From Candidatus Methylacidiphilales bacterium (lineage in GTDB: Bacteria; Verrucomicrobiota; Verrucomicrobiia; Methylacidiphilales; JANWVL01), in contig JANWVL010000110.1 of assembly GCA_025056655.1 (NCBI GenBank), positions 141,855 to 175,141 of the forward strand: a stretch of 33,287 nucleotides of DNA. Reading direction: 5' to 3'. Under the pieces are notes generated by a model. That model was not told the origin of the DNA. It did no database searches and saw only the letters and a list, made by a program, of their open reading frames with translations. Below are positions 3,920-20,938 of this stretch, one piece after another. How positions within the stretch are numbered: the stretch's first letter is position 1; each line of letters begins with the position of its first letter. Made by a program: the position numbers and the translations under genes.

Positions 3920-4663
3920 TCAACTTTGTTTGTGAGCGAGGGAGGGGTGAGGGGGTATGGTGATGAGGTGGATGTTGGGGATGGAGCCGTAGCCGACGAA
4001 ACGGGTTTTGTTGGTGCGGATGGTGCCCCAGAACCACCATGGGATGCGTTTGCGTTTTGGGTTGGGGAGGACGAAGTCGAAAACGCCGACGCCGTGCTTG
4101 GGGCGGCCGTGATAGGTGCGGCCTTCACTGGCTCCGGCCATTATTGGGCGATTTGAGTTTTTTTCGATGCCGAGGTAGATCATTACGTGGGAGATGGGGG
4201 GGTTGCGTTTTACTTTGTAGGTGCCTTCCCAGAATAGGATATCGCCCGGGCGGAGGAATTGGAGTTGGCGGTCGTGGGGGTCTTCGTCGTTGACTTTTTT
4301 GAGGGTGCGGTTTTGTTGAAGCCAGAGGTAGATTTGGGTGGAGTCGCGAGGGGGGTTTTTGTAGCCGAGTTGCTTGAGGGTGTAGTGGACGAAGCCGGAG
4401 CAGTCGAAGCCTCCTTGGTTGGGGTCGGCGGATCCGTATTTGTAGCTGAGGCGGCGAGAAGTTAGGTCTAAGCAGATGCGGATTAGGTGTTGTAGGTAGG
4501 GTGGGTAGTTATGGAAATTGAGTATGTCGTCGGGTTTGAGGGTTTGTGTGGGGAAGGGATTGGTCTGAGAGTTGGCGGGTTGAGATGAGAGTGGGGATAG
4601 GATGAGGGCTATTATTACGATGAATTGGCGAAGAGGGGGGAACGCTGGGTGATTGGAGATCAT
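3920..4663 (-). CDS. Exported NlpC/P60 family cysteine peptidase
   Basis: This 247-residue protein starts with a hydrophobic export signal (about residues 12-32), so it probably acts in the periplasm. The NlpC/P60 domain spans roughly 70-190. The catalytic cysteine is C88 in GFDCSGFVHY, the RPGDILFW turn lies at 138-145, and the catalytic histidine is H159 in ISHVMIYLG. Such enzymes usually cut gamma-D-Glu-diaminopimelate or related bonds in cell-wall peptides. No SH3b domain is evident before the catalytic domain. A basic, aromatic tail (KRKRIPWWFW) follows. It starts only 3 bases after the pheT stop, which suggests co-transcription with a housekeeping gene rather than dedicated control. The substrate cannot be decided from sequence. 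Confidence 0.88.
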   Translation of the reverse strand: MISNHPAFPPLRQFIVIIALILSPLSSQPANSQTNPFPTQTLKPDDILNFHNYPPYLQHLIRICLDLTSRRLSYKYGSADPNQGGFDCSGFVHYTLKQLGYKNPPRDSTQIYLWLQQNRTLKKVNDEDPHDRQLQFLRPGDILFWEGTYKVKRNPPISHVMIYLGIEKNSNRPIMAGASEGRTYHGRPKHGVGVFDFVLPNPKRKRIPWWFWGTIRTNKTRFVGYGSIPNIHLITIPPHPSLAHKQS

Positions 4664-7659: not shown

Positions 7660-8313
7660 ATGAAAAAGTTTTTAACGGTAACCGTGCTCGCGTGGATGGC
7701 CTGTGGAATGTATGTTGGAGCTCAAGAGGATGGAGGGGTGATTAGTTTTGATCGCACAGTAAAGATTAAACCTGAGTTTGTAGATGCACCAGTGTTTGCA
7801 GGTGGAGCAGCAAAGCCAGGGGGCACAGCTCCGACAGAATCGAAGTGGATGGAGGTGGAATTTAAATATGCATGTATGCCTCCTGAAGCTCTAGATTTGA
7901 ACTCAAAGAAGGGTATTTACCTTGATGAGGCTCAGTTCAAGATCTACATAGAGGGCATCAATCCGGATGAACCTAATTCTGACCAGGGAGAGCCAATTCT
8001 ACTCGTAGGTGAGGTAACTTATATCAACATCCCTGCTGGAAAAGAGAACTATGGCGTATTTTACGTTCATCCCAATACGATCGGCCGTTACGGCGGCCAA
8101 GCGACATTTGAAAAAAGCAATAAGAACATTCGCATAGAGGCTTACATTAACGGTCAACTTGTCGATGTAATACAAAAAAAAGAAGAAGATGATGACGGCT
8201 GGATCAATCCAATTAAGCGAGTGAACCATCAAGTATATACTAAAGAGGAAAGCCCTTTTCGTCTTGTGAATATCTCCCGTTACCCAGCCGAGAAGAAAAA
8301 TCGCAGGGATTAG
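7660..8313 (+). CDS. Exported protein resembling Akkermansia Amuc_1102 (pilus-like block)
   Basis: This 217-residue protein has a clear signal peptide (MKKFLTVTVLAWMACGMYVGA, cut before QE). The mature part is rich in beta-strand patterns. I recognise it mainly by position and size: it opens a block whose next three products match the Akkermansia muciniphila Amuc_1101, Amuc_1100 and Amuc_1099 arrangement, where the first gene encodes Amuc_1102, a small periplasmic beta-sandwich-type protein. No catalytic motif is visible. The gene ends 31 bases before the PilM-like gene, with which it is probably co-transcribed. The acidic and lysine-rich run near residues 172-177 (KKEEDDD) is a likely loop. 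The assignment to the Amuc_1102 family needs an alignment. A role in a pilus-like envelope machine is inference from context. Confidence 0.65.
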   Translation: MKKFLTVTVLAWMACGMYVGAQEDGGVISFDRTVKIKPEFVDAPVFAGGAAKPGGTAPTESKWMEVEFKYACMPPEALDLNSKKGIYLDEAQFKIYIEGINPDEPNSDQGEPILLVGEVTYINIPAGKENYGVFYVHPNTIGRYGGQATFEKSNKNIRIEAYINGQLVDVIQKKEEDDDGWINPIKRVNHQVYTKEESPFRLVNISRYPAEKKNRRD

Positions 8314-8344
8314 AGTCGAGAAGCTCACTCAGGGATGATGCAAT

Positions 8345-10123
8345 ATGTCCAAGCGAATACTTACCCTAGATATCGGGTCGCATGCAATTAAGCTTGCGGA
8401 ATTTTCTATCGATAAACAGAACGGCATCGTTCTAGTCCACTTTGGACAACAAGAGCTTCGTCAACGTAATTCCTCTTCGGAAGATCGTTCCACAGAAATT
8501 TCCCAAATCATCAAACAGCTCCTTTCTGAATACAAATCTCAAGCCCGAGAAGCTTTCCTCACCATCTCGTCGCAATCTACATTGATGAGGGCTGTCAAGT
8601 TGCCGCCAGTAGAAGCTGCCCAAATCGAAAAAATCATCGGTTTTGAGGCGCAACAAATCATCCCCTTTCCACTCGAAGAAATGGCCTGGGATTATCAAAT
8701 GGTTCCCTCACGTAGTGGAGATGGAGAAGAAGCCCTAATTGTCGCCGTTAAAAAAGAAATACTGGAACCAGAATGCCGTGCCATCGCCAACGCTGGGCTT
8801 CATGTCCAATTTGCCGATGCTGGCCCTCTAGCCCTTTACAACGCCTACCGTTTTAACTACGGATATCATCCCGAATCTGTCTTAATCCTCGATCTTGGGG
8901 CAAAAGCAACAAACCTCCTCTTCATCGAGGGATCTACTTTTTATTCCCGTTCCGTCCCCATTGCTGGCAATCACATCACTCAACAAATCGCCAACGAGTT
9001 CCAAGAGACTTTCCAAGCCGCAGAGACGCTCAAAAAGGGCAAAGGTTACGTCAATCTCGGTAACGACTATGCCGACACCGGCGATCCTACCTCGACTCGC
9101 ATCTCCCATCTTATTCGCAACACCATGCTCAAGCTCTACAGTGAGCTCACCCGTTCGATAAACTTTTACCGCACGCAACAAAACGGAGCCTCCCCAGTGA
9201 GAATCTACCTCACAGGCGGCACGGCTATGATTCCCTACCTCGATCTCTTTCTCGCCGAAAAGATGAAGCTGAGTGTTGAATATTTTAATCCCTTAAAAAA
9301 CATCAGCCTCCATCCCTCGATAGACCGTGAAGCTTTCCGATCCAAAGTTTTCTTCCTGAGCGAGCTTACTGGACTGGCTCTGCGGGCTGCAGGATCAGCT
9401 CCAATAGAAATTACTCTCAGCACTCCATGGATAAAGCAAAAAATCGCAGAGCGTCAACGTGCCCCATACCTCGTCGCGAGTCTAATCATCCTTTTTCTCT
9501 TATTCACCTTTAGTGCTACAGCCGTCTGGAGAGAAATCACTATCACCCAGCAACTCCTTGAAACAGCCCAAGCTGAAAATGCTCAATATCAGGCCACCGC
9601 AAGTCAACTTGAACCCCTCGAAAAAAATCTCGACCAACTCCAACACTACCTCGATCAAGCCAAAATCCTCGGCGATCAACGCCAATTCTGGCATCAAATC
9701 CTTAATGAACTCCACCGGTGCATTCCCGTCGGTGTCTGGATCACTGAACTTATTCCTCAATTCAACGGTTACGGCTTGAATGAGCTCGTCCCACCTGAAA
9801 AACCAGCTCCACCACCTTCTCGCCCCAAACCTTCAGCAGCTCCCTCTGGCACAACCGCACCACAAGCCGATGCATCCCCCAAGCCCGCTCCTCCCACACA
9901 AATCAACCAACTCAAGATCAAAGGCTTCTTTGAAAAAAATCTACAACCCGCCGTCATCAACACCTTCGTCTCAGCCCTCGCCGAATCCCCTCTCTTCGAT
10001 ATCAACCCCGAAAAAATCACCGAAGCCATTATCAGCACTGAGACGCCACAAGATTCTGACGCCCTCGGCTGGAGCTACGAACTCCGCATCAAACTCAAAA
10101 CCCCTCTCTCCATCCAGCCCTAG
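8345..10123 (+). CDS. pilM: PilM-like actin-fold ATPase fused to a PilN-like membrane domain
   Basis: This 592-residue protein is much longer than ordinary PilM (about 350). Residues 1-345 form the FtsA/PilM actin-like fold, with phosphate-1 loop LDIGSHAIKLAEF near 9-21, phosphate-2 loop LILDLGAKATNLLF near 180, and adenosine loop LTGGTAMIP near 290. One transmembrane helix follows at about 374-395, then a coiled coil (about 396-445) and a periplasmic PilN-like region. Inside that region lies a Pro/Ala-rich linker (about 480-520), before a last folded part starting INQLKIKGFF. In type IV pilus and type II secretion systems PilM holds PilN at the inner membrane; here both appear joined in one chain. 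It corresponds to Akkermansia Amuc_1101 by position. It is followed after 12 bases by the Amuc_1100-like gene. Confidence 0.85.
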   Translation: MSKRILTLDIGSHAIKLAEFSIDKQNGIVLVHFGQQELRQRNSSSEDRSTEISQIIKQLLSEYKSQAREAFLTISSQSTLMRAVKLPPVEAAQIEKIIGFEAQQIIPFPLEEMAWDYQMVPSRSGDGEEALIVAVKKEILEPECRAIANAGLHVQFADAGPLALYNAYRFNYGYHPESVLILDLGAKATNLLFIEGSTFYSRSVPIAGNHITQQIANEFQETFQAAETLKKGKGYVNLGNDYADTGDPTSTRISHLIRNTMLKLYSELTRSINFYRTQQNGASPVRIYLTGGTAMIPYLDLFLAEKMKLSVEYFNPLKNISLHPSIDREAFRSKVFFLSELTGLALRAAGSAPIEITLSTPWIKQKIAERQRAPYLVASLIILFLLFTFSATAVWREITITQQLLETAQAENAQYQATASQLEPLEKNLDQLQHYLDQAKILGDQRQFWHQILNELHRCIPVGVWITELIPQFNGYGLNELVPPEKPAPPPSRPKPSAAPSGTTAPQADASPKPAPPTQINQLKIKGFFEKNLQPAVINTFVSALAESPLFDINPEKITEAIISTETPQDSDALGWSYELRIKLKTPLSIQP

Positions 10124-10135
10124 CGATCACGCCCT

Positions 10136-11074
10136 ATGAAAACTAAATTTCCCCCCCTCCCTTGGCCATGGATCGCTGCTTATGCCTTAATCCTACTCCT
10201 CGGCACCATCGCCCTATGGCAACTCCAATCAATCTTAGAACAGAAGAAAAGCGAGCTTACCCAAGTCCTCCAGCAACAACAACAGCTCCTCCGACGCCGC
10301 TTCACGCCCGTCAACCTTAACGTCCAAGCCATCCAACAAACCCTCCAAGACTACAACTCACTCCAAAAAAATCTTCAACCCTTCCTCCACACCGGTATCG
10401 AAACACTCAAGCCCATCCGTGAAATCAACGCCATCAACTTCAAAGAAAAACTCGCAGAAAAAGTCAAACAACTGACCCAAAAAGCCAAGGAAAACAACAT
10501 CCGCCTCCCCCAAAATTTCTACTTCGGTTATTCCCTCTACAACAGTGAAATCAACCCCCCCGATCGAGCGACTCCTCTCCTTCAAAAACAACTCCTCGCC
10601 ATCGAAACGCTAGTCCTCACCCTCTACCAAGCTGGCATCGAGCAAATTCACGCCATCCGCAGAGCCCCTGATCCAGCGGAACCTCAATCTTCTAGCGTTC
10701 GCGGTGCCTCTCATCCCGACTATCTCCCCATATCCTCCAGCCTTAGCACCTCAGGCCATTACACCAACATCCCCATCGAAATCGAATTCAGCGCCCGCAC
10801 CGAGAGCCTCAGAAAAGCACTCAATGCACTACATAAATCACCCTATCTCCTCGTTCCCCGCGCCCTTGAAATCAAAAGCTCACGCACCTCTATCCCTCGC
10901 CTAAGCGACTTTCAAACCCAATCCGCTGAGCAAAGCGATCCCACCGTTCCGATCCTTGCCCTCGGGGATGAGACCGTAAGAGTCACCCTTCGCTCTGACC
11001 TCGTCGAATGGTCCTCAACTCAAGGCACCGAGCACATCTCCGTCAAATCCAATCCCCCTGCCCAGAATCCATGA
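10136..11074 (+). CDS. Amuc_1100-like membrane-anchored periplasmic protein (PilO-like)
   Basis: This 312-residue protein has an N-terminal membrane anchor (residues 10-29, WPWIAAYALILLLGTIALWQ), a Gln-rich coiled coil to about residue 50, then two alpha/beta domains. Compared from memory with Amuc_1100 of Akkermansia (317 residues), the same landmarks occur in order: a 'FGYSLYNSEIN' strand, the helix LLAIETLVLTLYQAGI, the strand IPIEIEFSA followed by helix RKALNALHKSPYLL, and a last strand VRVTLRSDLVEW. The fold is of the PilO/GspM ferredoxin-like type, which suggests a scaffold role beside the PilM-PilN fusion. Its stop overlaps the next start (ATGA at 11071-11074), showing translational coupling. 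The family call is good. The function in this organism is unknown. Confidence 0.75.
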   Translation: MKTKFPPLPWPWIAAYALILLLGTIALWQLQSILEQKKSELTQVLQQQQQLLRRRFTPVNLNVQAIQQTLQDYNSLQKNLQPFLHTGIETLKPIREINAINFKEKLAEKVKQLTQKAKENNIRLPQNFYFGYSLYNSEINPPDRATPLLQKQLLAIETLVLTLYQAGIEQIHAIRRAPDPAEPQSSSVRGASHPDYLPISSSLSTSGHYTNIPIEIEFSARTESLRKALNALHKSPYLLVPRALEIKSSRTSIPRLSDFQTQSAEQSDPTVPILALGDETVRVTLRSDLVEWSSTQGTEHISVKSNPPAQNP

Positions 11075-12210
11075 AAAACCACTGGCATCATCTCCTCCTC
11101 ATCCTCCTCTCTTTGATTGCTGCCGCATTGCTTTTTCAAAAAGCCACCTCATTCCCCACCCCTGAAGAAATCGGCGGCCCCAACCTCAAAAAACCCCCTC
11201 AAAAAAATCTCACCCCACCCACAAAAGAAGAGCTCCAAGCCATTCAATCTCCCTGGACGGAACCCAAAGAGTGGATTGCCCCACCCGGTGTCCCCAATCA
11301 ACTCTTCATCCCCCGCATGTGGCTATACTTCCCAGATCGCAACGAAGCCGAGCTGATCCAAGGCAATCTCGAAATAGACGGCATCCCCATAAGCTGGTTC
11401 GAAAAATATCGAATTAACTGGCGTATCCCGAAAATTGCCTTCATCGACTCCGACCAAGATGGATTTAGCAACCTCTACGAATATCGAAAAAACACAGCCC
11501 CATCCGATCCCCAGGAACATCCCGACTACACCGAGCTACTTCGCCTCAAGGATTTTGAAATCATCCCATTCCGCCTCCGCTTCCAAGCCGTCAACATGCT
11601 CGACGGACAAGAAGTATTTCAAATCAACCTCATGGACGATAACCCCCGATTCCCTCGCACCCTACGAGCATTCAACAAACGCATCAAAGAACGCATGATC
11701 ACCCCCGAAGCCGCTAAACTCCTACCCGAGCGCGACCGCGTCTTCCAACATTTCATCATCGACGCCTACCGCCCCAAACGCCAGACACAATTCAACGAAT
11801 CCACCAATCTCACCGAAGAAGTGGACGTCTCGGAGCTCGACATCGTCGATGAGCGCATCGGTGTCCCCATCACCCTTGTATTAAATAAAATCACGATTTC
11901 CCCCGACTCCAGCGCTGTCCTGATCCCCCTGCTCCCCGGTCGCACCAACCAAGAAATTCGCGTCCGCCAAGGCGAAGACTTCGAATTCCAATCTCAACAA
12001 TACCGCCTCATCAAAGCCACCTCGGAAAACGCCATCATCCGCAACCTAGCCAACGACACCGAAATCACAATTCCTCGCCTCCAAAATAAAGACCTCGACC
12101 TCGTCCCCATCAACTCGACAGCTCCGCCCCTAGAGCCGACGGAGACTCCATCCCCCACAACGTCACCCGATACGACTCGCACAACCTCTCCACTGCCGGC
12201 GGATCAATAA
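11071..12210 (+). CDS. Amuc_1099-like membrane-anchored protein of the pilus-like block
   Basis: The ATG at 11071 overlaps the previous stop and gives 379 residues; an in-frame upstream ATG at 11008 lies inside the Amuc_1100-like gene and is less likely. The product has one N-terminal hydrophobic helix (about 5-23), so it should be anchored in the inner membrane facing the periplasm. The sequence DSDQDGFSNLYEY near residues 128-140 looks like a single calcium-binding thrombospondin-type-3 or dockerin-like loop (DxDxDGxxN). By position it corresponds to Amuc_1099. The C terminus (about 347-379) is a Pro/Thr/Ser-rich, probably unstructured tail whose codons lie antisense to the conserved 3' end of lpxI. 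In Akkermansia a secretin gene (Amuc_1098) follows; here it is missing. Confidence 0.7.
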   Translation: MKNHWHHLLLILLSLIAAALLFQKATSFPTPEEIGGPNLKKPPQKNLTPPTKEELQAIQSPWTEPKEWIAPPGVPNQLFIPRMWLYFPDRNEAELIQGNLEIDGIPISWFEKYRINWRIPKIAFIDSDQDGFSNLYEYRKNTAPSDPQEHPDYTELLRLKDFEIIPFRLRFQAVNMLDGQEVFQINLMDDNPRFPRTLRAFNKRIKERMITPEAAKLLPERDRVFQHFIIDAYRPKRQTQFNESTNLTEEVDVSELDIVDERIGVPITLVLNKITISPDSSAVLIPLLPGRTNQEIRVRQGEDFEFQSQQYRLIKATSENAIIRNLANDTEITIPRLQNKDLDLVPINSTAPPLEPTETPSPTTSPDTTRTTSPLPADQ

Positions 12211-12946
12211 TCAAAGTCTTCCCCGCTTCCACACCGATCGCCGTCACACCATACTCCCGCGCCAATTCCACCGTTCGCTCGCCCACCACAGGCACATCAA
12301 ATCGCATATCCTGATTCGGCTCACTCACCTTCACCAACACACACCCCTTCCGTTTCCCAAGCTCCGCACCCCGTCGAATCATCGGATCCGTGCCCTCAAA
12401 CGCCTCCACCGCTAAGACCGTCCCTTGCTTCACCACCACCGCCTGACCGATCTTCCATTCGCTTATTTTTTTCGCGATTTGAAACCCATACCGCAAATCC
12501 TCCAACGTCCGCTCTTTCGGTATCGGCCCCGCACAATGGCCGCTCTTCGCCAGCCAATGCTCCACATAACGAGTCGCCGGCAACACCTTTATCCCCCGCG
12601 CCTCCAACTCATCTGCAATCGCACCAAATATCGAAGCCGCATTCCGCTCCTTCAACCGAGCAAGCAACATCAAGGCTTTCCAATCCGGCCGAAGCTCAAA
12701 CAAATTCGCCGGCCGAATCTGCCCCGCCATAATCACCTCCGCCACCCCCCCATCCTCCAAGACACGCAACATCCTCCCCAACTGCCCCACCCGCAACCAC
12801 GTCGTATCATAATTCTTGACCCACTCCTCATCCGTCTCATCATAAAAAGCAACCACCTTCACCTCCACCCCTTGATCTCGAGCAGAACGCGCCACCGCTG
12901 CCGGATACTTGCCGCGCCCCGCAATGATACCAAGTCGCCCTGCCAT
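12110..12946 (-). CDS. lpxI: UDP-2,3-diacylglucosamine pyrophosphatase LpxI
   Basis: This 278-residue protein belongs to the LpxI (DUF1009) family, which hydrolyses UDP-2,3-diacyl-GlcN to lipid X in lipid A synthesis and replaces LpxH in many bacteria. It begins MAGRLGIIAGRGKYPAAVA, the usual N-terminal motif. The middle part has VVVKQGTVLAVEAFEGTD (about 171-188), and the C-terminal part ends with GVEAGKTLIID (about 238-248), both family hallmarks. Its presence implies an LPS-type outer membrane. The last 33 codons overlap the opposite-strand Amuc_1099-like gene by 101 bases. Its coding strand is G-rich, unlike most other minus-strand genes here, whose coding strand is C-rich. Confidence 0.93.
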   Translation of the reverse strand: MAGRLGIIAGRGKYPAAVARSARDQGVEVKVVAFYDETDEEWVKNYDTTWLRVGQLGRMLRVLEDGGVAEVIMAGQIRPANLFELRPDWKALMLLARLKERNAASIFGAIADELEARGIKVLPATRYVEHWLAKSGHCAGPIPKERTLEDLRYGFQIAKKISEWKIGQAVVVKQGTVLAVEAFEGTDPMIRRGAELGKRKGCVLVKVSEPNQDMRFDVPVVGERTVELAREYGVTAIGVEAGKTLIIDPPAVERLCESYRVTLWGMESPSALGAELSS

Positions 12947-20109: not shown

Positions 20110-20763
20110 TTAATCCAGCCAATTGGGAGCAGTAGGGGGGGTGTCAGCTTGCACCATCTGCGTGGCCATGGATTTCTTCATTTTCTGGGCTTCGCCATTT
20201 TTTCTAATGAAGACAAAGCCTTTTTCACCGAAAGGAGCTGTTTTGGTGAGAGCTCCCGTGCCCCAGGGAAGGCTTTTATTTTTGGTAGTGGCAAATATTG
20301 TAGTGCCTGGATCCGCATCCGAGACAAAACCGATCCGAAATGCATTGTTTGCAGAGGGGATATCAACAGGGCCGGTCGCATTGTTTGCGCCGGAAAATAC
20401 TGGCACACCGGCGGCAACAACGATTCTGACAATTTCACGTGGTGAAATGTAGTCGTTTTCTTGCATTATTCGGTAGTAGGCGGAGCAATTGGAGGGGGGA
20501 GAGGGATTAGTAATGTTGGCTGGCCAACCGATGCGATCGCTGCCCGTTGTGCTAGCGTCGAGAGACATCTGCATGGCAATGGTGTAGAGTTGACGTAGAT
20601 TATTGATGGCAGCCGTCATTTGAGCTTCATTTACAGCGTTGGTGATGCCTGGCAAAGCGAGACTCGCCAGAATGCCGATGATCGCTATGACGACTAAAAG
20701 CTCGACGAGGGTGAATGCGCGAAATTTTTGCTTTGGGAGAACGGTGGGCTGTTTGGAATTCAT
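20110..20763 (-). CDS. Type II secretion/type IV pilin-like prepilin (pseudopilin)
   Basis: The ATG at 20763 gives 217 residues; ATG at 20778 and TTG at 20802 are in frame alternatives. A short basic leader ends KFRA, then FTLVELLVVIAIIGILASLA begins the class III prepilin helix, with the conserved +5 glutamate at residue 21. The -1 residue is Ala rather than Gly, which is common in Verrucomicrobiota. After the helix comes a soluble domain with GWPANITNPSPPS and a Gly-rich C-terminal part. Verrucomicrobial genomes carry many such single pseudopilins, usually away from other secretion genes. Its connection to the pilus-like block at 7660-12210 is possible but unproven. Confidence 0.87.
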   Translation of the reverse strand: MNSKQPTVLPKQKFRAFTLVELLVVIAIIGILASLALPGITNAVNEAQMTAAINNLRQLYTIAMQMSLDASTTGSDRIGWPANITNPSPPSNCSAYYRIMQENDYISPREIVRIVVAAGVPVFSGANNATGPVDIPSANNAFRIGFVSDADPGTTIFATTKNKSLPWGTGALTKTAPFGEKGFVFIRKNGEAQKMKKSMATQMVQADTPPTAPNWLD

Positions 20764-20938
20764 ACTGGCTATCAACATTTCCTGCCATTCGTCTTTTGTC
20801 AAGCTTTGGGTATTTAAGAAAAATTAACCTGTTTGCGCCGAGATTTATCGAGAGTCGAGAGTCGGAGGTGTCTTCCCTTTCATCTAAGGTTGTGGCTTGT
20901 GCCTGACGTGTGAGGGGGGAGGGTGTCTGCAAAATGCT

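Follow-up and report, generated by a model that had tools for sequence, protein, structure and literature searches.

Amuc_1098-1102 is a locus of Akkermansia (PMC5332112, PMC4960237). The genes amuc_1099-1102 go by the name MUL2 in a 2026 paper, in which they were found to be often conserved in Verrucomicrobiales, less so in Chthoniobacterales, and were not detected in Methylacidiphilales (PMC13174399). The window described here is a stretch of 33,287 nucleotides lying on one contig (C110) of a draft metagenome-assembled genome (MAG) of the latter order, designated G000. Positions 7660-12210 of the window hold Amuc_1102-, 1101-, 1100- and 1099-like open reading frames, in that order and all on the plus strand. 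When compared with the locus of Akkermansia muciniphila (MUL2 plus PilQ) the same four scaffold genes are present in the same order, and Amuc_1098-type secretins likewise exist in G000. However, these secretins are displaced from the block and are two paralogues instead of one, and the products have diverged, those of 1101 and 1100 being below the equivalog cut-offs.

The block can also be compared with the pilMNOPQ genes of type IVa pili (Myxococcus, Thermus, Pseudomonas). The predicted model of the 1101 product has the PilM fold (Z 36.6, rmsd 2.5 and 324 residues against the PilM-PilN complex 2ych), relatives of this product give a weak PilN signal and in relatives of the block the secretin gene comes next, as pilQ does. 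Nevertheless PilM and a PilN-like part are fused in 1101, 1099 has no sequence match or clear fold match to PilP, and 1102 has no counterpart. With the GspL-GspM-GspC-GspD set of type II secretion the block shares the fused PilM/PilN-like layout of 1101, which is that of GspL, and a weak GspM match of 1100. It differs from this set in that the best match of 1101 is PilM and not GspL, and in that a calcium-type loop is present in 1099, while the searches gave no GspC match.

The four-gene block and its edge

The features of the block and of its downstream edge, in window coordinates, are the following.

7660..8313, plus strand: Amuc_1102-like secreted protein (NF042424, 63 bits, cut-off 55)
8345..10123, plus strand: Amuc_1101-like PilM (PF11104, E 1.5e-41; NF045709, E 1e-143)
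10136..11074, plus strand: Amuc_1100-like bitopic protein in the PilO/GspM position (NF038287, E 6e-32)
11071..12210, plus strand: Amuc_1099-like bitopic protein in the PilP position (NF042425, 104 bits, cut-off 50)
12097..12210, plus strand: low-confidence C-terminal stretch of 1099, running antisense over the last part of lpxI (the ordered model stops near residue 342)
12110..12946, minus strand: lpxI, convergent, where secA would be expected (LpxI_N, E 7e-37; LpxI_C, E 1e-42)

The order Amuc_1102-1101-1100-1099 had been proposed in the initial annotation and is borne out by the open reading frames and the NCBIfam profiles, all four products being related to their Amuc namesakes (NF042424, NF045709, NF038287, NF042425). 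The Amuc_1102 and Amuc_1099 products exceed the equivalog cut-offs and the other two stay under them, with 480 bits against 650 for 1101 (NF045709) and 111 bits against 180 for 1100 (NF038287). None of 30 genomes of the same order passes the NCBIfam cut-off for 1101, so the 1101 and 1100 models look tuned to closer relatives.

The Amuc_1102-like product has an N-terminal Sec-type signal and no type III prepilin motif at its start, both judged by eye, and a sequence search matched it to the solved Amuc_1102 structure 7dsz (E 5e-9). In the Amuc_1101-like product (model pLDDT 87) an actin-like domain (residues 1-350) is followed by a long helix which includes a membrane span and then by a periplasmic alpha/beta domain. 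This last domain occupies the PilN position and the overall layout is GspL-like. PilM structures were also recovered for this product by sequence search. Among 38 relatives of 1101, weak matches to PilN were obtained in eight and to T2SSL in six, and the Pfam matches of 1101 to PilN and of 1100 to PilO/GspM are weak. The solved Amuc_1100 was recovered with the Amuc_1100-like product, both by single sequence (E 6e-6) and as a profile (E 1e-19). The match of this product to GspM (NF040576, E 6e-5) is under the cut-off of that family.

The 1099 gene starts at 11071 and overlaps the end of 1100 through ATGA. Its product ends in a small beta domain (model pLDDT 87) and carries one calcium-type loop, DxDxDGF.N..E, encoded at about 11446-11481. 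The loop residues D126, D128, D130, F132 and E137 are invariant across the Amuc_1099 family, and in 20 of 43 relatives the loop is a bacterial TSP3 match. The function of the 1099 protein may be calcium-dependent. With the 1099 model Foldseek returned nothing under E 0.001 and the best VIA-align score was Z 3.9, to unrelated small beta domains; the 1099 profile, when run against solved structures, matched mostly calcium-binding EF-hands, none with an E-value below 0.5. No PilP match was listed by profile or by fold. As Foldseek and VIA-align gave no clear match, a likeness of 1099 to PilP or GspC is neither established nor excluded. A PilP-like part is favoured by the gene order in relatives, where 1099 stands beside the secretin gene, although the fold searches gave no such backing.

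At its downstream edge the 1099 open reading frame is overlapped by lpxI over about its last 100 bases. The tail of 1099 overlaps the last codons of LpxI_C, and the Pfam match to LpxI_C stops at residue 264 of 278. This tail, which lies beyond the ordered part of the predicted model, is likely to be the scar of a breakpoint; such a tail is what one would expect after a break directly behind 1099, be the break biological or an assembly error. The contig extends 21 kb past the block, and a profile search of the whole of it gave no match to a secretin, T2SSE, T2SSF or peptidase A24. The earlier observations that the block runs into lpxI on the opposite strand without a secretin, and that no motor ATPase, prepilin peptidase or PilC is nearby, were thus confirmed. 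The GC skew is very strong between positions 4000 and 13000 of the window, where it changes sign around 8 kb (about +0.5 before, about -0.45 after), and at lpxI it does not track the coding strand.

Secretin and motor genes elsewhere in the genome

The G000 assembly comprises 2.44 Mb in 178 contigs (96% complete, 3.1% contamination). In it the secretin domain PF00263 was matched on contigs C95 and C112 only. These contigs carry two tandem Amuc_1098-type secretin genes, secA and directly after it secB.

L004:498-2840; L005:7708-10029 with L004:2-487: the secretin pair, in locus coordinates

Contig C95 ends and C112 starts within secA, and both share an identical 141-base end which is found nowhere else in the genome. 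De Bruijn assemblers leave exact overlaps of k-mer size where two contigs adjoin. Across the join the secA frame stays open over the 560 residues that entered the tree. On C95 a PfkB-type kinase gene is placed upstream of secA, and it is preceded by genes that are, as we read their translations, pyrG, kdsA and lptB. The best family of both secretins is Amuc_1098 (NF042912), with 549 bits genome-wide and below the cut-off of 750 bits; like nearly all relatives in the order, G000 has both secretins and two of the four block products below the equivalog cut-offs. Both secretins contain TPR-like N-terminal repeats and a secretin domain, as has likewise been described for the Akkermansia PilQ (PMC4960237).

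In a tree of 80 secretins the first- and second-position secretins of Methylacidiphilales form two separate, well-supported clades. The secA product falls within the "first" clade (support 98) and that of secB within the "second" (support 100). Because the tree places them in the first and second clades of their neighbours, the displaced genes are, judged on their sequences, the operon's own secretins. The pair of tandem paralogues is conserved in all Methylacidiphilales genomes with the locus (loci L044-L075). In the same tree an independent tandem duplication is seen in loci of the Chthoniobacterales type, with single secretins elsewhere.

The gene order of same-order relatives with enough contig is 1102-1101-1100-1099-secA-secB. 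A set of 62 genomes of Methylacidiphilales was searched twice and 38 of them have a credible 1099 gene. The secretin follows 1099 directly in 32, five end at a contig edge (G005, G018 (from contigs), G052, plus G053 and G056 (from coordinates alone)) and one, G000, is severed. In a set of 67 distinct Verrucomicrobiota-type loci, made up of a GTDB scan and the relatives and each with at least 1.5 kb after 1099, a secretin lies less than 1 kb from 1099 in 66. The exception is L089 (L089:11570-12853), where, at the locus itself, 1099 has no following secretin and the genes that come next run the other way. The idea that a secretin placed elsewhere might be normal for the whole clade fails, given that the secretin normally adjoins 1099; G000, with its block on C110 and its Amuc_1098-family secretins on C95 and C112, departs from this rule. 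The genes flanking the block and the secretin pair gave no sign of which piece kept the ancestral place, because the flanks differ between families. Promoter scans around both breakpoints showed no excess over shuffles, and terminator scans around them gave no clear candidate. The motif TTGACG-N18-TTTAAT was noticed by eye shortly upstream of the secA start, which is no evidence by itself.

Six T2SSE matches were found in G000. PilB-type ATPase genes occur as a tandem pair beside PilC on C178, and another lies beside PilC on C45. In addition there is a PilT-type pair on C31, a Tad-like set on C87 (an ATPase and two weaker T2SSF genes), a prepilin peptidase (peptidase A24) on C101 and nine N-methylation matches over the cut-off. 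The type IV pilus gene set of this genome thus includes PilM, secretin, PilB, PilC, PilD and prepilin-like genes, and the secretin, PilB/PilT, PilC and PilD that the initial annotation had suggested looking for are all present outside the block. The lack of nearby motor genes, also mentioned in that annotation, points to nothing unusual: of about 88 distinct loci only two have such genes close to the block (L133, a PilB tandem, and L103, PilT-like), so that their absence beside it is the rule, and in G000 they are elsewhere in the genome. In L133 (L133:3-3048) two tandem PilB-type genes lie at a distance of about 6 kb from the gene for PilM, so that scaffold and PilB are directly linked in the genome, which is rare. 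The window does contain one prepilin-like open reading frame with an N-methylation motif (20110-20802, minus strand), 8 kb past the block.

Explanations for the split operon

The observed absence of a secretin gene from the block is explained by relocation, and the variant is a diverged, split, two-secretin form of a known machine. We consider it very probable that these genes belong to a type IV pilus-like machine of the ordinary sort, with an operon split just after 1099 and two secretin genes that now stand together elsewhere. Within the type IV pilus-like locus of Verrucomicrobiota (Amuc_1098-1102) the block is the half that belongs to the inner membrane and the periplasm. The ancestor of Methylacidiphilales would have possessed the operon 1102-1101-1100-1099-secA-secB, which in this lineage would have been cut just after 1099, with secA and secB now together behind the PfkB-type kinase gene. 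In the machine 1101 would correspond to PilM/N, 1100 to PilO and 1099 to PilP, and this alignment scaffold would couple the cytoplasmic PilB/PilC motor to the secretin channel. A pilus, predicted here from the genes, could then be extruded and retracted and used for attachment or substrate capture. The split would probably alter only the co-regulation of the genes.

The split itself rests on one draft MAG, which is the one genome of its family in the set analysed. This circumstance is what gives some weight to an artefact of assembly or binning, in which the contig would have been misjoined at 1099/lpxI and the true genome would have the usual six-gene operon; moreover every other genome of the order whose contig is long enough keeps the genes contiguous, and secA itself lies at a contig break. 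We nevertheless find such an artefact improbable. The 1099/lpxI junction has no internal repeats, is unique in the genome except for a 31-base match of 87% and weaker chance ones, and none of its words longer than 12 bases recurs in the secretin contig stretches. The contig break falls within secA and not between 1099 and secA, and as C95 continues upstream of secA into the PfkB kinase and ordinary genes, two wrong joins would be needed. In addition, the 4-mer profiles of the contigs are more alike each other than those of relatives.

Of the two readings offered in the initial annotation, that of a secretin moved elsewhere gained support from secA and secB on C95 and C112, orthologous to the secretins that usually follow 1099. 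The other, a scaffold that forms an unusual envelope machine and needs no secretin, is not supported; taken together with two secretins that serve another system, it seems to us extremely improbable. The genes are indeed no longer adjacent, and L089 too is without a secretin after 1099, at the locus only; but the operon's own secretins are present in G000, and since no other PilM-type gene was found in this genome, secA and secB have no other obvious partner. A somewhat better case can be made for the view that scaffold and secretins belong to a type II-like secretion system and not to a pilus. The fused, GspL-like layout of 1101 and the weak GspM match of 1100 fit this reading, and the PilB and PilC genes on C45, a second such pair, might be of a T2SS-like kind. 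It is still unlikely, as PilM is the best match of 1101 by both sequence and fold, a PilT-like pair is present and PilQ of Akkermansia has been presented as the secretin of a type IV pilus (PMC4960237).

The two secretin paralogues, which diverge in parallel, might conceivably form a two-part portal, either as a mixed ring or as two channels on one scaffold (the pilus might use one of them, for instance, and the uptake of bound polymer or DNA the other), with the split letting the portal be made independently of the scaffold. We put this forward as a speculative suggestion, with the odds against it. The parallel pair allows one to ask directly whether one pilus scaffold serves two outer-membrane channels.

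Range of the locus in Methylacidiphilales

In this analysis the Amuc_1099-1102 locus was present in most families of Methylacidiphilales, the order in which the 2026 paper found none. Genes of the pmoA type were found in five searched genomes of one family, f8. No secretin was found in these five, G007, G013, G019, G023 and G027 (99% complete); four of them gave no match to Amuc_1101 and the fifth a weak one, with a score like that of FtsA. A match to 1099 was obtained in none of 13 genomes of this family. As the pmoA-bearing family is without the genes of the locus, a survey centred on cultured methanotrophs would see nothing, and this may explain the published non-detection.

The locus is widespread in the non-methanotroph families of the order, and therefore neither mucin nor a gut host is bound up with what Amuc_1100-type proteins originally did. 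With the present results a false lead is removed, there being no evidence for a secretin-less Amuc_1100 machine, and the locus is of moderate interest for its secretin pair and its phylogenetic range, not for the gene that the block lacks. These by-products, namely the parallel secretins throughout the order, the locus where it had been reported as undetected and its absence from the pmoA-bearing family, may outweigh the split. Three public MAG records, those of L075, L065 and L071, are titled Akkermansia muciniphila, Betaproteobacteria and Bacteroidetes, respectively; their loci group with Methylacidiphilales and the titles look wrong.
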